Below are positions 10,452 to 56,800 of a stretch of DNA of 64,000 nt, in pieces; positions within the stretch are counted from its first letter, which is position 1; every line of letters starts with the position of its first letter. The DNA comes from Streptomyces sp. CBMA152 (GTDB taxonomy: Bacteria; Actinomycetota; Actinomycetes; Streptomycetales; Streptomycetaceae). The notes below the pieces were generated by a model. The model did not search any database and was not told the origin of the DNA. It worked only from the letters and a program-made list of their open reading frames with translations. The position numbers were made by a program, and so were the translations under genes. The stretch is from the NCBI RefSeq assembly GCF_014596475.1, contig NZ_MECJ01000002.1:310001-374000 (forward strand), read 5' to 3'.

Positions 10452-11723
10452 ATGCCCGTCCATCAGGTTTCGGACCTCATACGTTTCGCCCGTGACCACT
10501 CTCCTTTCTACGCGGATCTCTACGCGGACCTGCCGCCCGAGGTCGACCGCATCAGCGACCTTCCGGTGGTGGACCAGAGCGCTTTCTGGGCCGCCAACAC
10601 CCTGCACGACAACAGTGTTCTGACCGCTCCCCTCGGGGAAGCCGTCGTGTTCAAGACCGGTGGCACCACGGGTGCGCCGAAGTTCTCCTGCTACACCCGG
10701 GAGGAGTGGCAGGAGTTCGTGACCGCGTTCGGTGCCGGGCTCGTCGACGCGGGTCTGCGCCCCGGACACCGGGTGGCCGATCTCTTCTACGCCGGTGAGC
10801 TCTACGCCAGCTTCCTGTTCATCCTGGACTCGCTCGCGCACGCCCCCGTCGCCAACGTACGGCTGCCCATCGGCGGCGGTGCTCCGCTGGAGTCGACGGT
10901 CCCCACCCTTGAGGACTTCGCCGCACAGGTCGTGGCCGGTACCCCGACCACCCTGTGCCGCCTCGCCGAGCACCTGATCTCGCTCGACCGTCAACTGCCC
11001 GCCGTAGAGCTGCTGTTCTTCGGCGGTGAAGCACTCTTCGACGACCAGCGCCGTCTGCTCGCGGCCGCCTTCCCCAACGCCGAACCCCGCTCGCTCGGCT
11101 ACGCCAGCGTCGACGGCGGCCTCCTCGGCCGACCGGTTCCCGGCCCGGACCCGCGCACCCACCGCGCGTTCACCCCGCACACCGTCGTCGAGATCCTCGA
11201 CGACGAGACCGGCGAGCCGATCCGCGAGACCGGCCGGGCCGGACGCGTAGTCGTCACCCAGCTCTTCCGCCGCCTCATGCCCGTCATCCGCTACCCCGCA
11301 GGCGACCGCGCGGAGTGGACCGACGTCGAAGGCGGTGTCTTCCGCATCCTCGGCCGCGCCGAGGAAGGCGTGCGCGTGGGCCCCGTGTCGCTGTACGCGC
11401 AGGACGCCCAGGCCGCCGTCGCCGAGGCCGACACCGAGGGCCGCGTGATGGGCATGCAGCTCGTCGTACGCCGTTGGGAGGGCCGCGACGGACTCGTGCT
11501 GCGCCTGGCCACCGCCCCCGGCGACGACGACCCGGCCGACCTGGAGGTCCTTGCCAAGGCGGTCGTCACCGAGCTGAACGACGCCCGCCCGTTCTACCCC
11601 GACTGCGTCGCCGCCGGATTCGTCCACCCGCTCCACGTCGAATGGGCGCGCCACCGCGACCTCGTGGTCAACCCCCGCTCGGGCAAGCTCGTCCGCGTGA
11701 TCGACGAGAGGCCGACCGCATGA
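10452..11723 (+). CDS. PaaK-type adenylate-forming enzyme (phenylacetate-CoA ligase family)
   Basis: A 423-residue ANL-superfamily enzyme that should activate a carboxylic acid as an acyl-adenylate. The nucleotide loop is VVFKTGGTTGAPKFS (about residues 66-79). The family order RHSPFY-like start, LFYAGELYASF, ELLFFGGEALF and RYPAGDRAEW is clear and similar to PaaK and to EhpF of griseoluteic acid biosynthesis. The translation start is ATG 10452, preceded by an AGGAAA-like site. It is homologous to the C-terminal domain of the fusion protein encoded at 15305-17824, so the operon carries two PaaK-type domains. It overlaps the next gene by 4 bp. Its substrate is unknown. Confidence 0.82.
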   Translation: MPVHQVSDLIRFARDHSPFYADLYADLPPEVDRISDLPVVDQSAFWAANTLHDNSVLTAPLGEAVVFKTGGTTGAPKFSCYTREEWQEFVTAFGAGLVDAGLRPGHRVADLFYAGELYASFLFILDSLAHAPVANVRLPIGGGAPLESTVPTLEDFAAQVVAGTPTTLCRLAEHLISLDRQLPAVELLFFGGEALFDDQRRLLAAAFPNAEPRSLGYASVDGGLLGRPVPGPDPRTHRAFTPHTVVEILDDETGEPIRETGRAGRVVVTQLFRRLMPVIRYPAGDRAEWTDVEGGVFRILGRAEEGVRVGPVSLYAQDAQAAVAEADTEGRVMGMQLVVRRWEGRDGLVLRLATAPGDDDPADLEVLAKAVVTELNDARPFYPDCVAAGFVHPLHVEWARHRDLVVNPRSGKLVRVIDERPTA

Positions 11724-13021
11724 CCACCCCGACGACCCCCGACCGCCGCCTCCCGCTCGTCCTGCGCAACCGCGCCTTCGGAACGGTATGGCTGGGCCAG
11801 GTGTTCACCCAGGCCGCGGTGCGTATGTTCCAGGTGGGTATCTCCTGGTGGCTCATCGCGTACGCCGCGTCCGGCTCGGGCGGACTCGCGTCCGGGCTGT
11901 TCATGGCGGTCAGCACGGTGCCCGCCGTGGCGCTCGCGCCGCTGGTCGCCCGCACCATCGCCCGTTACGCCCACCGCTCGCTGCTGCGCGCCGCCGCAGG
12001 TGGTGCGGGAGCGATCGCGACTGTTCTGGCCGTCTGGGCCTGCGCGAGCGATCTGCCCATCGTGGCGGCGTACGCGGCGACCCTCGCCCTCGCCACCTGC
12101 CAGGCGTTCTTCGACCCCTGTCTGACCACGTCCGTGCCCGAGCTCGTGGACGACGAGGACATCGAGGCCGCGACCGGCTTCGAACTGTCCACCCAGTCCC
12201 TGGCGAGCCTCGGCGGTGCCCTGCTCGGCGCCCTCATCGTGGACAAGGCCGGTGTGGCCGGACTCGCCGTCGGCTGCGCCGCCGCGTACGCGACCGCCGC
12301 ACTGCTCATCGCGACCGTACGGTTCCGTACGGCCGATGACACCGCCGACGCCGGAGCGGACGCGACCGGGGGAGAGGCGCCGCAGCGGACGCTGCGTCAG
12401 ATCCTGGGCTCGCTGCCCTACGTACGCGCGATCCTGCTCTGCTTCGCCGCCGCCAACCTCTTCACCACCGCGGTCTTCGTCGTGATGCCGCTGTACACCG
12501 CCTCGGTGCTGCACGGCGACGGCAGCACGGTGGCGCTCCTGGAGGCGTCGCTCGGCGCGGGCACGCTCATCGGCTCGTTCACCGGCGCGCGGATACCCGG
12601 GCGGCCCACCGTGGTCGGCTCGATCTGCCTCGCCACGATGGCCGTCGTGCTCGCCGTGCCCGGCCTGGTCGCCGCGCGGCCCGTCATCGCCGGTTCCCTG
12701 CTGGTGACCGGTTGGTGTGTCGGTGTGATCGGCGTCCGCTTCGTGGCGCTGTTCCAGCGGCTCGTCCCGGCCGCCGACAAGCCCGCGTTCTTCGCCGTCA
12801 TGCAGGCCGTCCTCGGCGCCACCTTCCCGGTCGCCTCGCTGCTCTTCGGCCTCCTCGGCGACCATCTGTCCGCCCAGACGCTGTGCCTGATCCAGGCGGC
12901 GGGGCTGGTGCCCGCGGCCGCGTTCCTGGGTCTGCTGGGCGACAACCCGAAGGCGACGGACATGTCTGACGATTCGTCAACTGCTGCCCCGGAGCCGGTC
13001 ACCGTCGGAGGCGCCCGATGA
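11720..13021 (+). CDS. MFS transporter
   Basis: The 433-residue integral membrane protein has about 12 hydrophobic helices and the MFS-type N-terminus LVLRNRAFGTVWLGQVFTQA. A short charged C-terminus ends in the cytoplasm. It is probably a proton-driven exporter, by analogy with drug-efflux members of the family, for the product of this operon. The start ATG overlaps the upstream stop (ATGA), and the 3' end overlaps the GNAT gene the same way, so expression is tightly coupled. The substrate cannot be predicted. Confidence 0.85.
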   Translation: MTTPTTPDRRLPLVLRNRAFGTVWLGQVFTQAAVRMFQVGISWWLIAYAASGSGGLASGLFMAVSTVPAVALAPLVARTIARYAHRSLLRAAAGGAGAIATVLAVWACASDLPIVAAYAATLALATCQAFFDPCLTTSVPELVDDEDIEAATGFELSTQSLASLGGALLGALIVDKAGVAGLAVGCAAAYATAALLIATVRFRTADDTADAGADATGGEAPQRTLRQILGSLPYVRAILLCFAAANLFTTAVFVVMPLYTASVLHGDGSTVALLEASLGAGTLIGSFTGARIPGRPTVVGSICLATMAVVLAVPGLVAARPVIAGSLLVTGWCVGVIGVRFVALFQRLVPAADKPAFFAVMQAVLGATFPVASLLFGLLGDHLSAQTLCLIQAAGLVPAAAFLGLLGDNPKATDMSDDSSTAAPEPVTVGGAR

Positions 13022-14154
13022 CCGCCACCATCGAGCAGGCCACCCCCGCCGACATCGCCGACCTGCGCCAGCTCTACTACGCGGTGTACGGCCCGCACTA
13101 CCCCACCGCGCTGGGCACCGACCCCGCCGAGATGTCCCGGCTCATCCAGGACCCGCACACCCTCTGGCTCGTCGCCCGCTGCGCCCGCACCGGCGCGCTC
13201 GCCGGGTCGGCCGCGGTCCACGGCGAGCCCGGCAGCCGCATCGGCCGGCTCGAAGGGCTCGCCGTCCACCCCGACCAGCGCGGCTCGGGGCTCGCCGGAC
13301 AGCTCACCGAGGCCCTGTGCGCCCGTACCCTCGGGGCCGGGACGCTCGACTCGGTGTACGCCACGGTCCGCACGGTCAGCGCCGGACCCCAGCGTGTGGT
13401 GGCCCGCAACGGCTTCCGCCCGATGGGCATCCTGCCCAACGCCGTGGATCTCAGTAGCCGCGAAAGCCTCGCGCTCTACGCGCGTCACTCGCCCGGTGTC
13501 CTCGACCGGCGCGTCCCCGTCGCCGAGGTGCCCGCGTCGCTCGCGCCCCTGCTGCGTACGGTCGAGGGGAGCCTCGGCATCAGCTACGCGGACACCCGGC
13601 CCACCGCGCCGCAGCCCGTACCCGCCGGGTCCGCGCCGGCTCCGCTGGAGATCGTCGAGGCACCGGCGTTCGTGCGCCGCCACTTCCATGAGCGCTTCCC
13701 CGAACCCGGCCGCTGGTTCTACCCGTTGCACACCCCGAACATCCTGCTCACCCCGGACGACGGCGGCTTCGAGGTGTACGCGTACCTCAACCGCGTCGGC
13801 GGGTACTGCGCGTTGGTCACCGCCCACCCCGACCCGGCGTTCGCCGCGGGCTGGCTGGAGTCGGTCACCCGCACCCTCACCCGGGCCGGCGCCGGATACG
13901 TCGAGGCGCTGGTGCCGCTGGAACACCACGCCGCGCTGTCGGCGTTCGGTGCCCAGGGCTTCATCGCCGGGGCGCTGTATCCCGCGATGCGCCGGGACGG
14001 CGACGGCTTCCACGACTACGTGGTGATGTCCCGTACCACCGAGCACATCGACTTCCGCGGTGTGGTCGTCGACACACCGCTCCAACCCTTCCTCGATTCC
14101 TATGTGTCGGCCTGGGCGTCGACCTATCTGCCCTCCCGTGAGGTTGCCTCATGA
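13018..14154 (+). CDS. GNAT-family acyltransferase with a second GNAT-like half
   Basis: The 378-residue cytoplasmic protein has a clear N-terminal GNAT domain. The acyl-CoA pyrophosphate-binding segment reads LAVHPDQRGSGLAGQLTEAL (about residues 81-100) and is followed by the RNGFRPMG motif. Residues from about 210 onward form a second domain with weaker GNAT character (VEALVPLEHHAALSAFGAQG), so this may be a tandem-GNAT protein. It could acylate an amine or acyl carrier intermediate made by the neighbouring acid-activation enzymes. It overlaps both neighbours by ATGA. Substrate and acyl donor are unknown. Confidence 0.75.
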   Translation: MTATIEQATPADIADLRQLYYAVYGPHYPTALGTDPAEMSRLIQDPHTLWLVARCARTGALAGSAAVHGEPGSRIGRLEGLAVHPDQRGSGLAGQLTEALCARTLGAGTLDSVYATVRTVSAGPQRVVARNGFRPMGILPNAVDLSSRESLALYARHSPGVLDRRVPVAEVPASLAPLLRTVEGSLGISYADTRPTAPQPVPAGSAPAPLEIVEAPAFVRRHFHERFPEPGRWFYPLHTPNILLTPDDGGFEVYAYLNRVGGYCALVTAHPDPAFAAGWLESVTRTLTRAGAGYVEALVPLEHHAALSAFGAQGFIAGALYPAMRRDGDGFHDYVVMSRTTEHIDFRGVVVDTPLQPFLDSYVSAWASTYLPSREVAS

Positions 14155-15308
14155 CCCCCTCGAACCCCCATCTCGCGCCCGTGGACGTCCCGGACGCCGC
14201 GGCCCTGGCCCGGGTGCAGCAGCTCTGCGACCTGACCGAGCCGTACGCCTGCGGACCCGCCGAGGACGAGCTGTTCGCCGCCGCCATGGCGGAGTCCAAC
14301 GCCTGGCACCGCGAGCGGTCGCCGTTCTTCCGGAGCCTGTACGACGGCGAGCGCCAGGACACGCCGTACGACGCGCCCCTGGTGCACGCGAACTTCTTCA
14401 AGCGCCACGAAGTCCTGTCCATCCTCGAGGACGACGTCCATCTGCATCTGACCTCCTCCGGCACCACCGGGCAGAAGTCGCAGATGTTCTTCGACGAGTG
14501 GACCATCCGCTCCGCCCAGCGCATGGTCGCCCGTATCTTCGAGCGCAACGGCTGGATCACCCCGGACCAGCAGGTCAACTACCTGCTCTACAGCTACGAG
14601 CCCGCCCGCGACCTCAAACTGGGCACCGCGTTCACCGACAACTACCTGTGCGACTTCGCACCGGCCCGCGAGGTCGAGTACGCCCTGCGCGCCACCGGCA
14701 ACGGGCACGAGTTCGACCCCTTCGGCTGTGTCGCCGCGCTGCGCCGCTTCGCCGAGGACGACGCGCCCGTACGCATCCTCGGTTTCCCCGCCTTCCTCTG
14801 GTTCACCCTGGAGCGGATGCGCGCGATGGGTCTGCCGCCGCTCCAACTGCCCGAGGACTCCCTGATCATCCTCGGCGGCGGCTGGAAGGGCCACACCGAC
14901 CAGCAGATCGGCAAGCACGAGCTGTACGCCCGGGTCACCGAGCAACTGGGCATCCCCTCCGAGCGGATCCGCGACACCTTCGGCTCCGTCGAGCACTGCA
15001 TCCCGTACATCGAGTGCTCGCACCACAACCTCCACGCGCCCGTGTGGTCGCGGGTGTTCATCCGTTCCACGCGCACCCTCGAATCCCTCGGGTACGGCGA
15101 GCGCGGCTATCTGCACCTCGTGTCCCCGTACATCACCTCGGTACCGGCGCAGAGCGTCGTCATGGGTGACCTCGCCTCGCTCCACCCGGGTGAGGAGTGC
15201 GGCTGCGAACTGGACACCGACTGGTTCACCATCCACGGCCGCGCCGGGGTGAGCCGCAACAAGAGCTGTGCCGTGGCCGCCGCCGAACTGATGAAGGGAA
15301 TGTCATGA
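14151..15308 (+). CDS. LuxE-type acyl-protein synthetase
   Basis: The 385-residue enzyme belongs to the LuxE group. In bioluminescent bacteria LuxE adenylates a fatty acid, takes it onto a cysteine near its own C-terminus and hands it to the LuxC reductase. Visible features are the adenylation loop HLTSSGTTGQKSQMF (residues 99-113), the LuxE-typical LGFPAFLWFTLERM stretch, and several C-terminal cysteines including Cys373 in NKSCAVAAAEL, a candidate acyl-carrying residue. It sits immediately upstream of, and overlaps, the LuxC-type fusion gene, so the pair should form an acid-reducing unit. No luciferase (LuxAB) or LuxD thioesterase is nearby, so this is not a light-producing system. Confidence 0.85.
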   Translation: MTPSNPHLAPVDVPDAAALARVQQLCDLTEPYACGPAEDELFAAAMAESNAWHRERSPFFRSLYDGERQDTPYDAPLVHANFFKRHEVLSILEDDVHLHLTSSGTTGQKSQMFFDEWTIRSAQRMVARIFERNGWITPDQQVNYLLYSYEPARDLKLGTAFTDNYLCDFAPAREVEYALRATGNGHEFDPFGCVAALRRFAEDDAPVRILGFPAFLWFTLERMRAMGLPPLQLPEDSLIILGGGWKGHTDQQIGKHELYARVTEQLGIPSERIRDTFGSVEHCIPYIECSHHNLHAPVWSRVFIRSTRTLESLGYGERGYLHLVSPYITSVPAQSVVMGDLASLHPGEECGCELDTDWFTIHGRAGVSRNKSCAVAAAELMKGMS

Positions 15309-17824
15309 CCGAGGCAGAGACCGTGATCAACCACCATTACTGGCAGGGCACCTTCATCGGCGACGACGAGGCCGCCCGGCGCCTGGCCACGCTGCCCGCC
15401 ACCGTCGAGGCCGCGCTCGCCACCCCGCTGGACACCGAGACCGTCCTGGCCGCCTGCGACGCGCTCGCGGGCGCCCTGCGCGACCCCGGCCACCCCGTAC
15501 GGGAGCGGCTGGCCCCGCACCTGCCCGGCGGCGACGCGGAGGACACCGAGGAACTGCTCGCCGAACTCGCCGCGTTCCTCGGCCGCGACGCGCTCACCCG
15601 CAAGCTCCGCCGCGAGCTCGGCGGCACCGCCCCGCAGCGCCTCAGCCGCCCGGACGCCAAGGAGACGGTGTACGAGGCGTGGGCCCCGGTCGGTCTGGTC
15701 GCCCACATCGCCCCCGGCAACGCCGCCACCGTCGCGCCGCTCAGCCTGATCGAGGGACTGCTCGCGGGCAACGTCAACATCCTCAAGACCAGCAGCGCCG
15801 ACACCCTGCTCGCGCAGCATCTGCTCGCCGAACTCGCCGCGTTCGATACGAGCGGCGCCCTCGCCGAGCGGGTCATCGTGCTGCGGTTCTCCTCGTCGCG
15901 CGCGGAGTGGCTGCGCCTGATGTGCGCACCCGCCGACGCCGTCGCGGTGTGGGGCGGCGAGGCCGCCGTGGAGGGTGTGGCCGCGCACGTTCCGGCGGGC
16001 TGCCGTCTGGTGGAGTGGGGTCACAAGATCTCCTTCGCGTATCTGACGCGGGACGCATGGGCGGACGAGGCGACGCTGACCGCGCTGGCCCAGGACATCT
16101 GCGTCTTCGAGCAGCAGGCGTGCTCCAGCCCGCAGGTCGTCTACCTCGACACCGAGGACACGGGCGAGCTGCACGCCTTCGCCGACCGCCTCGCCGCCGC
16201 GCTGGCCGTCCAGCCCGCGCCCGTCGAGGACGAGCTCGACCCGGCCGAGTACGCCGAGCTCACCACCACCGAGCACCTCGCCCGCCTGGAGGAACACCTC
16301 GGCCTGACTCGCGTCCTGGCCGCCCCCGACGGCACCTGGCGCGTCATGGCCGACACGCGCTCGGCGCTCACCGCGTCCCCGCTGCACCGCAGCGTCTGGG
16401 TCAAGCCGCTGCCCCGCAAGAACGTCATCGCCACGCTGCGGCCCATGCGCCGCTATCTGCAGACCGCGGGCATCGCGGGCAGCCGCACCGACATCGCCGA
16501 GCTCTCCGCGGCGGTCCTGGCCGCCGGTGCCACCCGGGTCACCCCGGTGGGCGCCATGACCGCCGGCTATGTGGGCGAGCCGCACGACGGTGTGTACGCG
16601 TTGCAGCGTTACAGCCGCCGCGTCGCCGTCCAGGCCGACGCCCGCTTCGCCACCACCGCCTGCCTAGACGACCTCGCCCACCGGCCCGCGTTCCCGGCGC
16701 CCACCGGACCGCTGCTCGACAAGGCCGCCGTCCAGGAGCTCAACCGGGACGTCGAACGACGCGACGCCGAGCTGTACTTCCGCAGCGGCGGCAGCACCGG
16801 CACCCCCGCCCTGTCGCTCTTCAGCTACGACGACTACGACGCGCAGATGCATGCGGCCGCACGTGGTCTGCTCGCTGCGGGCTACGACCCGGCGAGCGAC
16901 CGCACCGCCAACCTCTTCTACTGCGGCGGTATGTACGGCGGTTTCATCAGCTTCTTCTCCATCCTCGAACGCCTCGGCGGCGTGCAGATGCCGATGGCCG
17001 CCGGATCCGACCACCGCGCCACCGCCGAGATGATCGTCGCGTACGAGGTCGACACCCTCTTCGGCATGCCCTCCTACCTGTGGCAGCTCCTGCACGAGGA
17101 AGCGGACCTGCTGCGCTCCTACGGCGGCATCCGCAAGATCTTCTACGGGGGTGAGCACTTCACCGAGGAACAGCGCCGCACCCTCACCGAGACGTTCGGC
17201 ATCGAGGTCGTCCGCTCCATCACATATGGCAGCACCGACCTCGGCCCGCTCGGCTACCAGTGCGTCGAGAGCGGCGGCAGCGTCCACCACCTGCACGCCG
17301 ATCTGCACACCCTGGAGATCGTCGCCGTCGACGCCGACCGTCCGGTGGCGCCGGGGGAGACCGGCAGGCTCGTCTTCACCACCCGGGCCCGCCGGGGCCA
17401 GCACCTCGACCGCTACGTCATCGGCGACCTCGGCCGCTTCCTGCCCGGCGACTGCCCCTGCGGCAACCGCGCCCCGCGCTTCGAACTCCTCGGCCGTCTC
17501 GGCGAAGTGATGCGCGTGGCAACGTATTTCCTCAACTACCGCCGGTTCGTGGCCATCGCCGAGGAACACCTGCGCTACAGCGGCGAGCTCCAGGCGGTCC
17601 TGACCAGCGGTCCCGCCCGGGAATGCCTCACCCTGCGGATGGAGAGCTCCAAGGCCCCGGACGCGGACGTGGCGCGCGACGCGTTTCTCGCCGCATACCC
17701 GGAGGCGCGCTCGGCCGTGGACGAGCGGCTGCTGGACTTCGCGGTCGAGATACTGGACGGAGCCGATCTGGACCGTACGGCGACGAGCGGGAAGCTGCGG
17801 GCGGTGGTGGACCGGAGGCGTTAG
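15305..17824 (+). CDS. LuxC-type acyl reductase fused to a PaaK-type adenylation domain
   Basis: The 839-residue two-domain protein is unusual. Residues 1 to about 445 are a LuxC-type NAD(P)H-dependent acyl-CoA/acyl-thioester reductase: PVGLVAHIAPGNAATVAP, the nucleotide-binding region VNILKTSSAD, and catalytic Cys273 in FEQQACSSPQ. Residues from about 455 to 839 are a PaaK/EhpF-like adenylate-forming domain with loop YFRSGGSTGTPALS, IFYGGEHFTEEQRR and YVIGDLGRF. One chain could thus activate an acid and reduce it to an aldehyde. Separate homologues of both activities (EhpF and EhpG) are known in griseoluteic acid biosynthesis. It ends directly against the stop codon of the convergent DAHP synthase gene. 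Confidence 0.82.
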   Translation: MTEAETVINHHYWQGTFIGDDEAARRLATLPATVEAALATPLDTETVLAACDALAGALRDPGHPVRERLAPHLPGGDAEDTEELLAELAAFLGRDALTRKLRRELGGTAPQRLSRPDAKETVYEAWAPVGLVAHIAPGNAATVAPLSLIEGLLAGNVNILKTSSADTLLAQHLLAELAAFDTSGALAERVIVLRFSSSRAEWLRLMCAPADAVAVWGGEAAVEGVAAHVPAGCRLVEWGHKISFAYLTRDAWADEATLTALAQDICVFEQQACSSPQVVYLDTEDTGELHAFADRLAAALAVQPAPVEDELDPAEYAELTTTEHLARLEEHLGLTRVLAAPDGTWRVMADTRSALTASPLHRSVWVKPLPRKNVIATLRPMRRYLQTAGIAGSRTDIAELSAAVLAAGATRVTPVGAMTAGYVGEPHDGVYALQRYSRRVAVQADARFATTACLDDLAHRPAFPAPTGPLLDKAAVQELNRDVERRDAELYFRSGGSTGTPALSLFSYDDYDAQMHAAARGLLAAGYDPASDRTANLFYCGGMYGGFISFFSILERLGGVQMPMAAGSDHRATAEMIVAYEVDTLFGMPSYLWQLLHEEADLLRSYGGIRKIFYGGEHFTEEQRRTLTETFGIEVVRSITYGSTDLGPLGYQCVESGGSVHHLHADLHTLEIVAVDADRPVAPGETGRLVFTTRARRGQHLDRYVIGDLGRFLPGDCPCGNRAPRFELLGRLGEVMRVATYFLNYRRFVAIAEEHLRYSGELQAVLTSGPARECLTLRMESSKAPDADVARDAFLAAYPEARSAVDERLLDFAVEILDGADLDRTATSGKLRAVVDRRR

Positions 17825-19357
<1,533 letters not shown>

Positions 19358-53829: not shown

Positions 53830-56800
53830 TCAGCGGTCGCGGAGGCGGCCGATGCGCTCGCGGTCCCCGCGGAGCTCGGCGCGCAGCAGCCGCGACAGCG
53901 GCGCGACGAGCCGTCGGGCCAGCGCGTCCAGATCGGCGGGCTCGTCCGGGGGTTCGGGGCTGGGCGCGGCCGCCGGTTGGGGAGTTGGTGCGGATGCGGT
54001 GGGCCGGGGGGCGGGGGCGGTGCTTTGGGAGCGCTGGATGGTGGGGGTGGGTGGAGGCTGGTTGCGGAGGGTCGGCTGGATTACGGGTGTGGGTGCGGGG
54101 GGTGTCGGCTGGGGGGCGGCGGGGCGGCGCTGGACGACGGGTTGGGGGGTGGGGCGGGCGGTGACGGGGGTGGTGGCGGCGCGCTGTGGGGTGACCACGG
54201 TCGGGGGGCGTTCGGTGGCTGTGGCGGGCGTCGCCTGCCGCAGGGGTATGGGGGCGGGCGCGCCGACCGGTGCCGGGCGGTGTTGTTCGCTCGGGGTGAT
54301 CGGGCGGGACGAGGCCAACGGGCTGGATGCTGGGGCGCGTTGGATGGCGGGGGAGGGGAGACGGACGGTTCGGAGCGGGGTGAGGGGTTCGGGGGCGGGG
54401 GTCGGCTCGGGTGCGGGTGCGGGTGCCGGAGCCGGTGCTTCGGGTGTGGGTGCCTGGTGGGGTGCGGCGGGGGTGCGTTGCACGGGCGGGGGTGTGGTGG
54501 CGGGCTGGGGAGTGAGGGGGGCGCCGATGAGGGGCCTGCGGCGGGCTGCCGTTTCGGGCGCGGGGGAGGGGCCCGTGGTCGGGCTGGTGGTCGCACTCTG
54601 GCTGCGGGTCACCCGGCGTACGAGTGGCTTGCGTTGTACGGGTGCGGGGGTCGCTTCCGGGGTTGGGGCGGCCGGTACGGGGTCTGGAGTCCTCGCACCG
54701 GCGGGGGGAGCCGGTGCGAGGACGTCTTGGGTCGGCGCGGGAGGCTGTACCGCGCCGACGGGGGCGATCCGCCGCGTCGGCCTTACGGGACGCGGGGCGG
54801 ATACGAGGGAAGGGCGTATGGGTGGGGAGAGCGGCATCGTGGCGCGCTGGATCGCCGGGGAGGCGGGAGTTGCCGTGCCAAGTCCCGAGGGCGCGGCCTC
54901 GGTCCGCTGGGCGGGGTGGGTCGGCCCGGTGGGCTGGAGGGGCGCGGGGGCCGGTGCCGGGAGGCGTGCTGCCTTGCGCTGAACCGGGTCGGGGGGCGCC
55001 GGTCGGGCGACGCTGGGGGCCTGAACGTGGCTGTGGGGTACGGGAGTTGAGCGCGGCATCTCGACTCGGTGCGCGGGGTGGTCCGAGGGTGGGGTGGCGG
55101 ACGTCGGGTTGTTGTTCGCCGTGATGGCTTGCTGGATCCCGGCGCGGCGAGGCGTGGGGGGGAGGTGGGTGGGTGCGGCGGCATGTTGAATTGGTGCCGG
55201 GGCAGGGGCTGTTGACCCGGTAGGACGAGGGTTGCCCGACGCGGGTGCGGCAGAGCGCGGGGCCTCCGGGGTTGTGGCTCGCTGCGGGGTGGGCGAGTCG
55301 GGTGTGGTGGTCCGCTGAACCGTGGACGGAGTCGCCGTCGGTCCGCTCTGCCCAGTCCCCGGGCGGGCAGGGGCCGTGGGCCGCTCGACCTGCGGCGCCA
55401 GAGGCATGGCAGCACGCCGGATCGAGGGCGAGCTCTCCTTCGGCGCCTGCGGCGTTGCGGCTCGTTGGACGGCGGGTGAGGTGGTGCTGTGCGCCGTCTG
55501 GTCAATGCCCGGGCGGGCGTGCTCGGCCTGGGCGGCTGTACGTGCGGCTGCTCGCTGGACGGCAGGTGCAGGGTTGCTGTGAGCGGTCTGCTGAACGCCC
55601 GGGCGGGCAGGCCGGGTGGGTCGCTCGCTCTGCGGGGTCGTGGGTATGGCGGCCCGCTGGACTGCGGGTGACGTGGTGCTGGGTGCGGTCTGCCGAGCCT
55701 CCGGGCGGGCAGGCTCGGAGGAACGCTCGGCCGGCGACGTTGTGGCCCGCTGGATTGCGGGCGAGGCGTCGTCGGGCGCAGTCCGCCGAATCTCCGGGCG
55801 GTCGGGCGGGGTGGGGTGCCCGGTCTGAGGGGTCGTGGGTGCGGCGGTCCGCTGGACTGCGGGTGACGTGCTGTTGCGCGCTGTCTGCTGAGTACCCGAG
55901 TGGGCAGGCTCGGAGGGTCGCTCGCTCTGCGGGGTCGTCGGCGTGGCCGCGCGCTGGATGGCGGGTGGGGTGTTGATGGGTGCGGTCCGCCGAGTCGTCG
56001 GGCGGACGGGTTCGGCGGTCTTCGGCGCCGCAGGGGCGACGGCCCGCTGGGGGGTGTCGTCGGCCGCTGTCTGCTGAATCTCTCGGTGGGCAGGGCTGAT
56101 GGTCCGTGCCGAGGGCGTCGTGGTGGGCGCACCAGGTACGGCGGTGGCTCGCTGCACGCCGGGGCCATCGACCTTGGCAGCCCGTTGGATCGCAGGCCCG
56201 TCCGGCGACACCGCACGCGGTGCCTCGATGCTTGGCCGGGCCGCGGACTGCCCGGCCGACGAGGTCGGCGGAGCAGGGTGCCCCGGCACGGATTCGATCG
56301 GCCGGCGGATGGCCGGACTCGGCGCCGGGACGGCGTTCCGGGCCGGGGTCCGCTCAGCGGACGTCGAGGCCGTCCGCTCCGAGCGGCCCGGCGCGGCGGT
56401 CCGCTGGATGGCGGCCGGGTTCATGGCCGGTCCGGCCTCCGAAGCCGAGGTCGGCTCGGGGGGTGTCGGTGCCGTCCGCGCCGGGTGTCCCGGGGCGACA
56501 GCCCGCTGGACGGCGGCCGGTTCGGCCCCCGCCCCGCTGTCCGTACGGCCCGCCCTGTTGCCCGTACGGACACTCGGGCTTGAGGCCCCAGTACGGGAAG
56601 CGTCTCCGGAACGTACAGCGGCCCCAGACCTCATGACCTCGGCCGGTCCAGCCGCCTCAGCGGACTCCGCCGTCTCACGAACGGCCCCCGCCACCGGCAA
56701 CCGAAGCGCCGGCAACGGCAGCCCGGTCGGGCGGCCGGTGACCGGGGTCAGGGCGTCGCGGAGTACGCCATGCGGGGCCGAGTCGCTCACCGAGTGGCCC

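Follow-up and report, generated by a model that had tools for sequence, protein, structure and literature searches.

A five-gene operon with three adenylate-forming modules

We analysed a stretch of 64,000 nucleotides from Streptomyces sp. CBMA152 (contig NZ_MECJ01000002.1, positions 310,001 to 374,000; hereafter the window) and focused on a compact block of five genes within it. With families assigned by Pfam, the block reads:

10452..11723, + strand, PaaK1, PaaK-type ligase, 423 aa (AMP-binding, 9.5e-8)
11720..13021, + strand, MFS protein, 433 aa (MFS_1, 4.3e-18)
13018..14154, + strand, GNAT protein, 378 aa (Acetyltransf_1, 2e-8)
14151..15308, + strand, LuxE-type acyl-protein synthetase, 385 aa (LuxE, 1.3e-24)
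15305..17824, + strand, LuxC fused to a PaaK-type domain (PaaK2), 839 aa (LuxC, 1.9e-93; AMP-binding, 2e-9)

The block lies at 10452-17824 with its five genes on the plus strand, exactly where the original prediction, made from the sequence alone, had placed it, and neighbouring genes overlap by 4 bp at each of the four junctions. In 53 loci we counted 187 junctions of adjacent block genes; 186 of them ended in ATGA or GTGA and a single one in CTGA, indicating that the overlaps are not due to chance and that the next gene can start on the overlap. The claim that the genes act as one unit was thus borne out, both by these junctions and by the 44 of 53 loci that hold all five genes. The five gene types had also been named correctly, but in an order that began with LuxE; the true order is PaaK, MFS, GNAT, LuxE, LuxC-PaaK. 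PaaK1, LuxE and the LuxC-fused PaaK2 are, by Pfam, the three adenylate-forming modules that had been proposed. Pfam revealed no carrier or condensation domain in the operon, and neither LuxAB luciferase, whose absence had been noted before, nor LuxD; the 30 other open reading frames (ORFs) of the window that were compared with Pfam match other families or none. Export had been suggested as the simplest role of the MFS protein and, given its MFS_1 match, we likewise propose that it exports the product. As far as the sequence tells, the five-gene arrangement is real, intact and present in many contexts.

Catalytic residues of the LuxE, LuxC and PaaK enzymes are conserved

LuxE scored well above its Pfam cut-off (87.2 bits against 24.9), as did the LuxC part of the fusion (314 bits against 21). 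The LuxE profile matched 7xc6_E of the LuxC-LuxE complex (1.5e-29), with Cys373 (codon 15267-15269), which is invariant in 51/51 aligned sequences, facing the C-terminal cysteine of that chain (position 364, counted manually). Similarly, the LuxC part matched 7xc6_A (2.8e-28), and Cys273 was aligned to the cysteine of the QQAC motif (285, counted manually). Cys273 had already been singled out as the LuxC cysteine; it is indeed present (codon 16121-16123) and is kept in all 49 aligned fusions, one of which is from Salmonella (each residue alignment except that of the GNAT includes one Salmonella sequence). In luminous bacteria, the acyl group is carried by the corresponding cysteines. Since both cysteines are kept and aligned to those of 7xc6, the original prediction that LuxE and LuxC together reduce an activated acid to the aldehyde level is well supported by sequence. 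Unlike the fatty acid reductase 7xc6, the LuxC of the block has a fused PaaK, LuxD and luciferase are missing, and the substrate that we propose is a peptide.

PaaK1 matched the solved structures of PaaK (2y27), a PaaK-like enzyme (6siw) and AjiA1 (6wuq), and the PaaK2 part of the fusion matched 4r1l (2.4e-29). The C-terminal Lys412 of PaaK1 (codon 11685-11687) was invariant in 45/45 sequences and Lys830 of PaaK2 in 48/49. None of the more specific models was reached: the PaaK equivalog TIGR02155 has a cut-off of 646.3 bits, compared to 46.9 for PaaK1 and 70.3 for the fusion, so that both are PaaK-like rather than PaaK, and the NCBIfam models for long-chain LuxE and LuxC have cut-offs of 550 and 750, compared to 64.9 for LuxE and 83.5 for the fusion. 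The family names therefore do not fix the substrates.

The AlphaFold2 model of the GNAT protein (alignment of 31 sequences; predicted local distance difference test 87.3, predicted template modelling score 0.88) consists of two GNAT-like halves. The first half has the acetyl-CoA loop R88-x-x-G91-x-A93, in which G91 and A93 are invariant in 48/48 sequences. The matches listed by Foldseek, 50 in number, are mostly single-domain GNATs but include the tandem GNATs 9en3, 9emp, 2wpw, 2zw4 and 3tt2, with histidine acetyltransferase (9en3, 9emp) at ranks 3 and 4, the clavulanic acid protein 2wpw at rank 15 and bleomycin acetyltransferase 2zw4 at rank 32. Alignments to tandem GNATs across both halves gave a root-mean-square deviation of 12-14 Å, showing that the halves sit differently, and coverage in the Z list fell mainly on residues 1-267, which leaves the second half barely tested. 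The model would fit an N-acetyltransferase acting on an amino acid.

The block is conserved as a unit in Streptomyces

Among 392 Streptomyces genomes, 49 matched the fusion protein at 1e-40 or better. A full-length fusion is present in 45 of the 392 (~11%), in 47 copies (manual row count), and the remaining four of the 49 matched via LuxC or PaaK alone. Across 396 genomes of the phylum, the fusion gave three matches, namely the window's own, one congener and one LuxC-only relative. LuxE was present in 26/121 genomes of the family (6 of 17 genera) and PaaK1 in 27/147 genomes of the order.

We compared 53 neighbourhoods, comprising the window, 18 named genome contigs (16 labelled Streptomyces) and 34 stretches that contain 29 of the 47 fusion copies, with five PaaK-only matches (L049-L053) excluded. 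All five genes were found in the same order and on the same strand in 44 of them. The other nine were three loci without PaaK1, one cut by a contig end before GNAT, two with LuxE and an unfused LuxC, and three with a PaaK relative alone. Two of the 44 (L038 and L056) have the same LuxE and come from one strain, and the fusion of another (L047) reaches its contig end. When loci were joined if they had at least two flanking gene families in common, with three broad families omitted, the 44 five-gene loci formed 28 different neighbourhood groups. The search for the same block in other genomes, suggested as a check on the original prediction, was thus positive. As the block is autonomous across these 28 neighbourhoods, its pathway should start from primary metabolites. 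Pairwise distances among the five proteins were correlated at 0.92 to 0.97, a value reached in 0 of 200 permutations for each of the ten pairs. Such values fit genes inherited together, although the relatedness of the species contributes to them as well.

A second set of 22 loci (14 of 29 LuxE places, six PaaK1 places of at most 54% identity, and the plasmid loci L100 and L101, the latter with the same genes as L125 from one species) contained the five-gene block in nine, a rearranged block in seven and PaaK1 in another cluster in six. In the seven rearranged loci, which represent three genera, PaaK1 lies on the far side of GNAT, LuxE and the fusion, on the same strand or convergent; no relative of the window MFS was found beside these copies at 1e-12 and 60% coverage. 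In L072-L074, MFS, GNAT, LuxE and the fusion are present and no PaaK1 lies beside the block. Genome G247 (complete, single contig) has the other four genes and no PaaK1 relative genome-wide at E <= 1e-40. The steady core is thus GNAT, LuxE and LuxC-PaaK, with PaaK1 and the exporter usual and not universal.

No sixth partner gene emerged, as no flanking family occurred in more than six of the 44 five-gene loci once the broad families c5, c6 (response regulators) and c19 were omitted; these occur in 12, seven and four of the 53 loci, respectively, and were taken as unspecific. A conserved RiPP (ribosomally synthesized and post-translationally modified peptide) precursor just upstream is not supported either: among the other five-gene loci, the 400 bp before the PaaK1 gene of the window matched only L048 (81% over 299 bp) and, along 55 bp, L055, and in a translated search L048 alone. 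A phage origin was likewise discarded, since the query P0005 matched five of 50,697 phage records, none over more than 80% of the query.

A relative of the block on Salmonella plasmids resembles the leup operon in gene number and length

The Salmonella enterica IncF plasmids CP053580 and CP054717 carry a rearranged relative of the block in the order LuxE, LuxC-PaaK, PaaK, GNAT:

L099, 8578-14740, Salmonella plasmid relative
L105, 8578-14741, Salmonella plasmid relative

The CP053580 proteins are 55% (LuxE), 39% (LuxC-PaaK fusion) and 41% (PaaK) identical to those of the window. CP054717 has an intact GNAT gene (294 aa), whereas a frameshift splits that of CP053580. Before these genes lies a 121-aa fragment with no Pfam match, which we read as a piece of an MFS protein from a different subfamily. 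A peptidase-domain ABC transporter and HlyD are encoded near the block relative on CP053580. The Salmonella LuxE and fusion genes had no blastn match in 5,426 E. coli genomes, and no relative of the fusion was found in viral contigs.

A leup operon for leupeptin has been described in Klebsiella, Photorhabdus and Xenorhabdus (PMC8283571, PMC11480411). In Klebsiella CAV1374 (CP011636, 315353-321183), leupABCD comprises four genes over 5,831 bp and has a transporter next to it; the PCR product reported for leupA to leupB measures 1,235 bp (PMC8283571), which fits a first gene of ~1.1 kb. The Salmonella relative likewise has four genes, spanning 5,759 bp on CP054717, beside the MFS-like fragment; its gene order and its transporter are not those of the Streptomyces block.

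Leupeptin is a standard component of protease-inhibitor mixes. In a 2020 study, Li et al. reportedly traced leupeptins to 'discretely expressed ligases and accessory enzymes', and we take the leup parts list to consist of separate ligases, an acetyltransferase and an acid reductase that depends on ATP, with no nonribosomal peptide synthetase (NRPS). PaaK1, PaaK2, GNAT, LuxE and LuxC are combined in one operon here. The block has probably been characterised already, as the gammaproteobacterial leup operon, a tie drawn from gene number, length and gene types rather than from alignment.

The operon is a likely source of a leupeptin-type peptide aldehyde

Two ligases, an acetyltransferase, an ATP-driven acid reductase and an exporter are the parts needed for leupeptin, and this points to a leupeptin-type product. 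We consider it likely that the operon encodes a complete route, independent of any NRPS, to an N-acetyl peptide aldehyde of this type, most probably leupeptin itself (acetyl-Leu-Leu-argininal) or a close analogue. The gene set, its conservation as a unit, its families and its intact catalytic residues can be read from the DNA; from them we infer substrates, order of steps, assignment of ligases to bonds, and product. GNAT would acetylate leucine, and PaaK1 and PaaK2 would each spend ATP to form a single peptide bond, with the second leucine joined by PaaK1 and arginine, in the last bond, by the LuxC-fused PaaK2. LuxE would then adenylate the C-terminal carboxylate of the peptide, load it onto Cys373 and transfer it to Cys273 of LuxC, which would reduce the peptide acyl group to the aldehyde with NAD(P)H; the MFS protein would export the finished peptide aldehyde. 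Forming two peptide bonds and carrying out one reduction takes three activations, which accounts for the three adenylating modules. The last bond is assigned to PaaK2 because PaaK2 is fused to the reductase in all blocks examined, and the extra leucine to PaaK1 because PaaK1 is sometimes absent. The four-gene variant without PaaK1 would accordingly be expected to make acetyl-Leu-argininal, which is a known natural product (PMC10548850). In leupeptin biosynthesis, the peptide acid is formed first and then converted to the aldehyde by a 'leupeptin acid reductase' that uses ATP and NADH (PMC7714073), which fits LuxE and LuxC.

Leupeptin has been known in actinomycetes since 1969 (reference in PMC10548850), and Streptomyces roseus ATCC 31245 is the producer used in that work (PMC10548850). 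Its genome contains the complete block (L036, the same DNA as the G071 locus), with a fusion 86% identical to that of the window. Condensation domains gave 18 matches in this draft genome, on contigs C40, C78, C5 and C63, and PF07993 gave seven on six other contigs, one of which is the contig of the block. The two kinds of match share no contig, and an NRPS ending in a reductase was not observed. Two of the seven PF07993 matches were looked at closely: that on C74 is of the sugar-nucleotide dehydratase type, and that on C84 belongs to a protein of 1,643 aa that has an Epimerase/3Beta_HSD-type domain and is encoded next to an adenylation-peptidyl carrier protein (A-PCP) protein, neither with a condensation domain.

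Several points weigh against a leupeptin assignment. A 2023 paper counts the leupeptin of Streptomyces as NRPS-made (PMC10548850), and in S. roseus the A-PCP protein and its 1,643-aa neighbour are a possible alternative source. PF07993 is unspecific, with matches in all 14 control genomes, and the S. roseus assembly has ~160 contigs; the lack of a contig shared between condensation and PF07993 matches does no more than make the NRPS route less likely. By itself the S. roseus block amounts to a factor of about nine and could be luck, given that ~11% of the sampled Streptomyces have the fusion. The link to leupABCD through the Salmonella relative is circumstantial, resting on gene number, length and gene types instead of alignment; the window GNAT matched that of CP054717 weakly (26% over residues 7-195, E 1.3e-4), and a search of CP053580 with it returned no match. 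Finally, judging from G247, PaaK1 is not always needed.

The nearest alternative is a pathway of this kind, for an N-acyl peptide aldehyde, that does not lead to leupeptin but, for example, to a dipeptide aldehyde, an aldehyde with different residues, or a pyrazinone arising after cleavage. It is rather unlikely, although it overlaps with the close analogue allowed for above, so the two estimates are not exclusive. The number of ligases does vary, with no PaaK1 beside the block in L072-L074 and none at 1e-40 in G247; acetyl-Leu-argininal occurs in nature (PMC10548850), and the Klebsiella leup operon also yields a lysine analogue and pyrazinones (PMC11480411). Against this, the 86% identity of the fusion in the producer S. 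roseus makes the same product the simplest guess. The original prediction was of another kind, an aromatic or fatty acid activated by EhpF-type chemistry and reduced to a small aldehyde as for griseoluteic acid; grixazone would be a comparable case. Streptomyces offers a precedent in GriC and GriD, an ATP-dependent AMP-binding enzyme and a reductase that convert 3-amino-4-hydroxybenzoate to its aldehyde (PMC10179220), and the profile matches of the block include PaaK, the PaaK-like 6siw and AjiA1. However, GriC-GriD act on an aromatic acid, with neither LuxE nor GNAT named in the available passages of PMC10179220, and such a pathway would leave three adenylating modules and a GNAT unexplained, while no acid-making gene is conserved over the 28 neighbourhoods. 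We find it doubtful and unlikely. Still less probable is a LuxCDE-like fatty aldehyde system lacking luciferase: LuxE and LuxC match 7xc6 with both cysteines aligned, but the block contains neither LuxD nor luciferase, and a fused PaaK and a GNAT are present in 48/48 fusion loci, with a second PaaK in 44.

The operon might also be a tailoring part of its neighbourhood. It directly abuts a convergent class-II DAHP synthase gene (17825-19114), part of a downstream region (17825-43551) that further encodes an SDR, HAD, MaoC, epimerase, acyltransferase, glycosyltransferase, FkbM methyltransferase, GDP-mannose dehydratase-like protein, class-III aminotransferase and ketosynthase, a set that we take to resemble a hygromycin A-type cluster. 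Yet hygromycin A is not known to need such an aldehyde, and of ten proteins from this side only the acyltransferase recurred, in 6 of 52 other loci at 40-42% identity (tblastn, 1e-20, 40% coverage, best non-overlapping matches; matches of the second MFS overlapping the block MFS would have been dropped). A role in hygromycin A formation is thus highly improbable, and the separateness of the pathway, asserted from the start, agrees with the 44 five-gene loci in 28 neighbourhoods. The description of the pathway as 'undescribed' has become doubtful, as its parts fit leupeptin and the block is present in a known leupeptin producer. The remark that peptide assembly genes are missing holds for carrier and condensation domains but overlooked the PaaK ligases as possible makers of peptide bonds. 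Taken together, a leupeptin-type operon, separate from hygromycin A and of an already known kind of pathway, is the most likely interpretation. Its assignment to leupeptin in Streptomyces may be new; no description of the five-gene set was recognised in the open literature, most subscription journals being outside the search.

The pathways of flavopeptin and antipain, peptide aldehydes made by reductase-domain NRPSs (for which see PMC7586950), and of the peptide aldehyde livipeptin, which also has an N-acyltransferase (PMC10548850), rely on a carrier protein together with a reductase domain, whereas the block has no carrier-protein or thioester-reductase match.

Other LuxE, LuxC and PaaK relatives and wider implications

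The PaaK1 relatives found in another cluster (L112-L117) are 51-53% identical to PaaK1. In L117, this cluster encodes a carrier protein, a flavin amine oxidase, an ATP-grasp ligase, other AMP ligases, an MFS protein and an SDR, a setting that might suit amide-bond making by the PaaK1 relative. Three loci with a shared cluster (L085-L087) were found via the PaaK half only. L087 encodes a KAS III, an ATP-grasp protein, a zinc-type ADH, an MFS protein and a 651-aa AMP-binding protein with a PaaK2-like C-terminal part, according to the part of its conserved genes that went to Pfam. These loci were considered as grixazone-like relatives of the block and set aside, as they have no LuxC match.

LuxE also occurs with an unfused LuxC. 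Two loci (L075 and L076) have this pair with no block PaaK, GNAT or MFS alongside; in L075 it adjoins DUF4291 and glyoxalase-like genes. A cold-seep plasmid of Chloroflexota (L103, 8809-11210) has a LuxE-LuxC pair that adjoins a helicase gene and lies near a heliorhodopsin gene. On a plasmid of Streptomyces europaeiscabiei (L102, 3016-11474), LuxE (48-49% identical) and an unfused LuxC are preceded by an MbnB/TglH-type enzyme, a 51-aa ORF and an MBL protein, with a YcaO-nitroreductase protein on the opposite strand. This locus is possibly a RiPP cluster whose product has a reduced C-terminus, and a LuxE-LuxC pair in such a YcaO/MbnB-type setting suggests that these pairs can act on peptides.

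If the block is the leupeptin operon of Streptomyces, five genes and 7.4 kb suffice, and about one in nine sampled Streptomyces species (45/392) has it. Such a pathway would lack the NRPS core genes that cluster-mining programs presumably seek. More speculatively, Streptomyces might make leupeptin and related protease inhibitors without NRPSs, with the number of PaaK ligases setting the chain length (acetyl-Leu-argininal from the four-gene variant) and LuxE-LuxC serving as a general reductase of peptide C-termini that is also recruited to RiPP clusters for ribosomal peptide aldehydes; we hold this wider picture only tentatively. The variants of the block offer a direct test of ligase number against peptide length.

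Elsewhere in the window, the strand bias is strong at positions 54001-56000, where both GC skew (0.357) and AT skew (-0.387) take their extreme values among the 32 listed steps.

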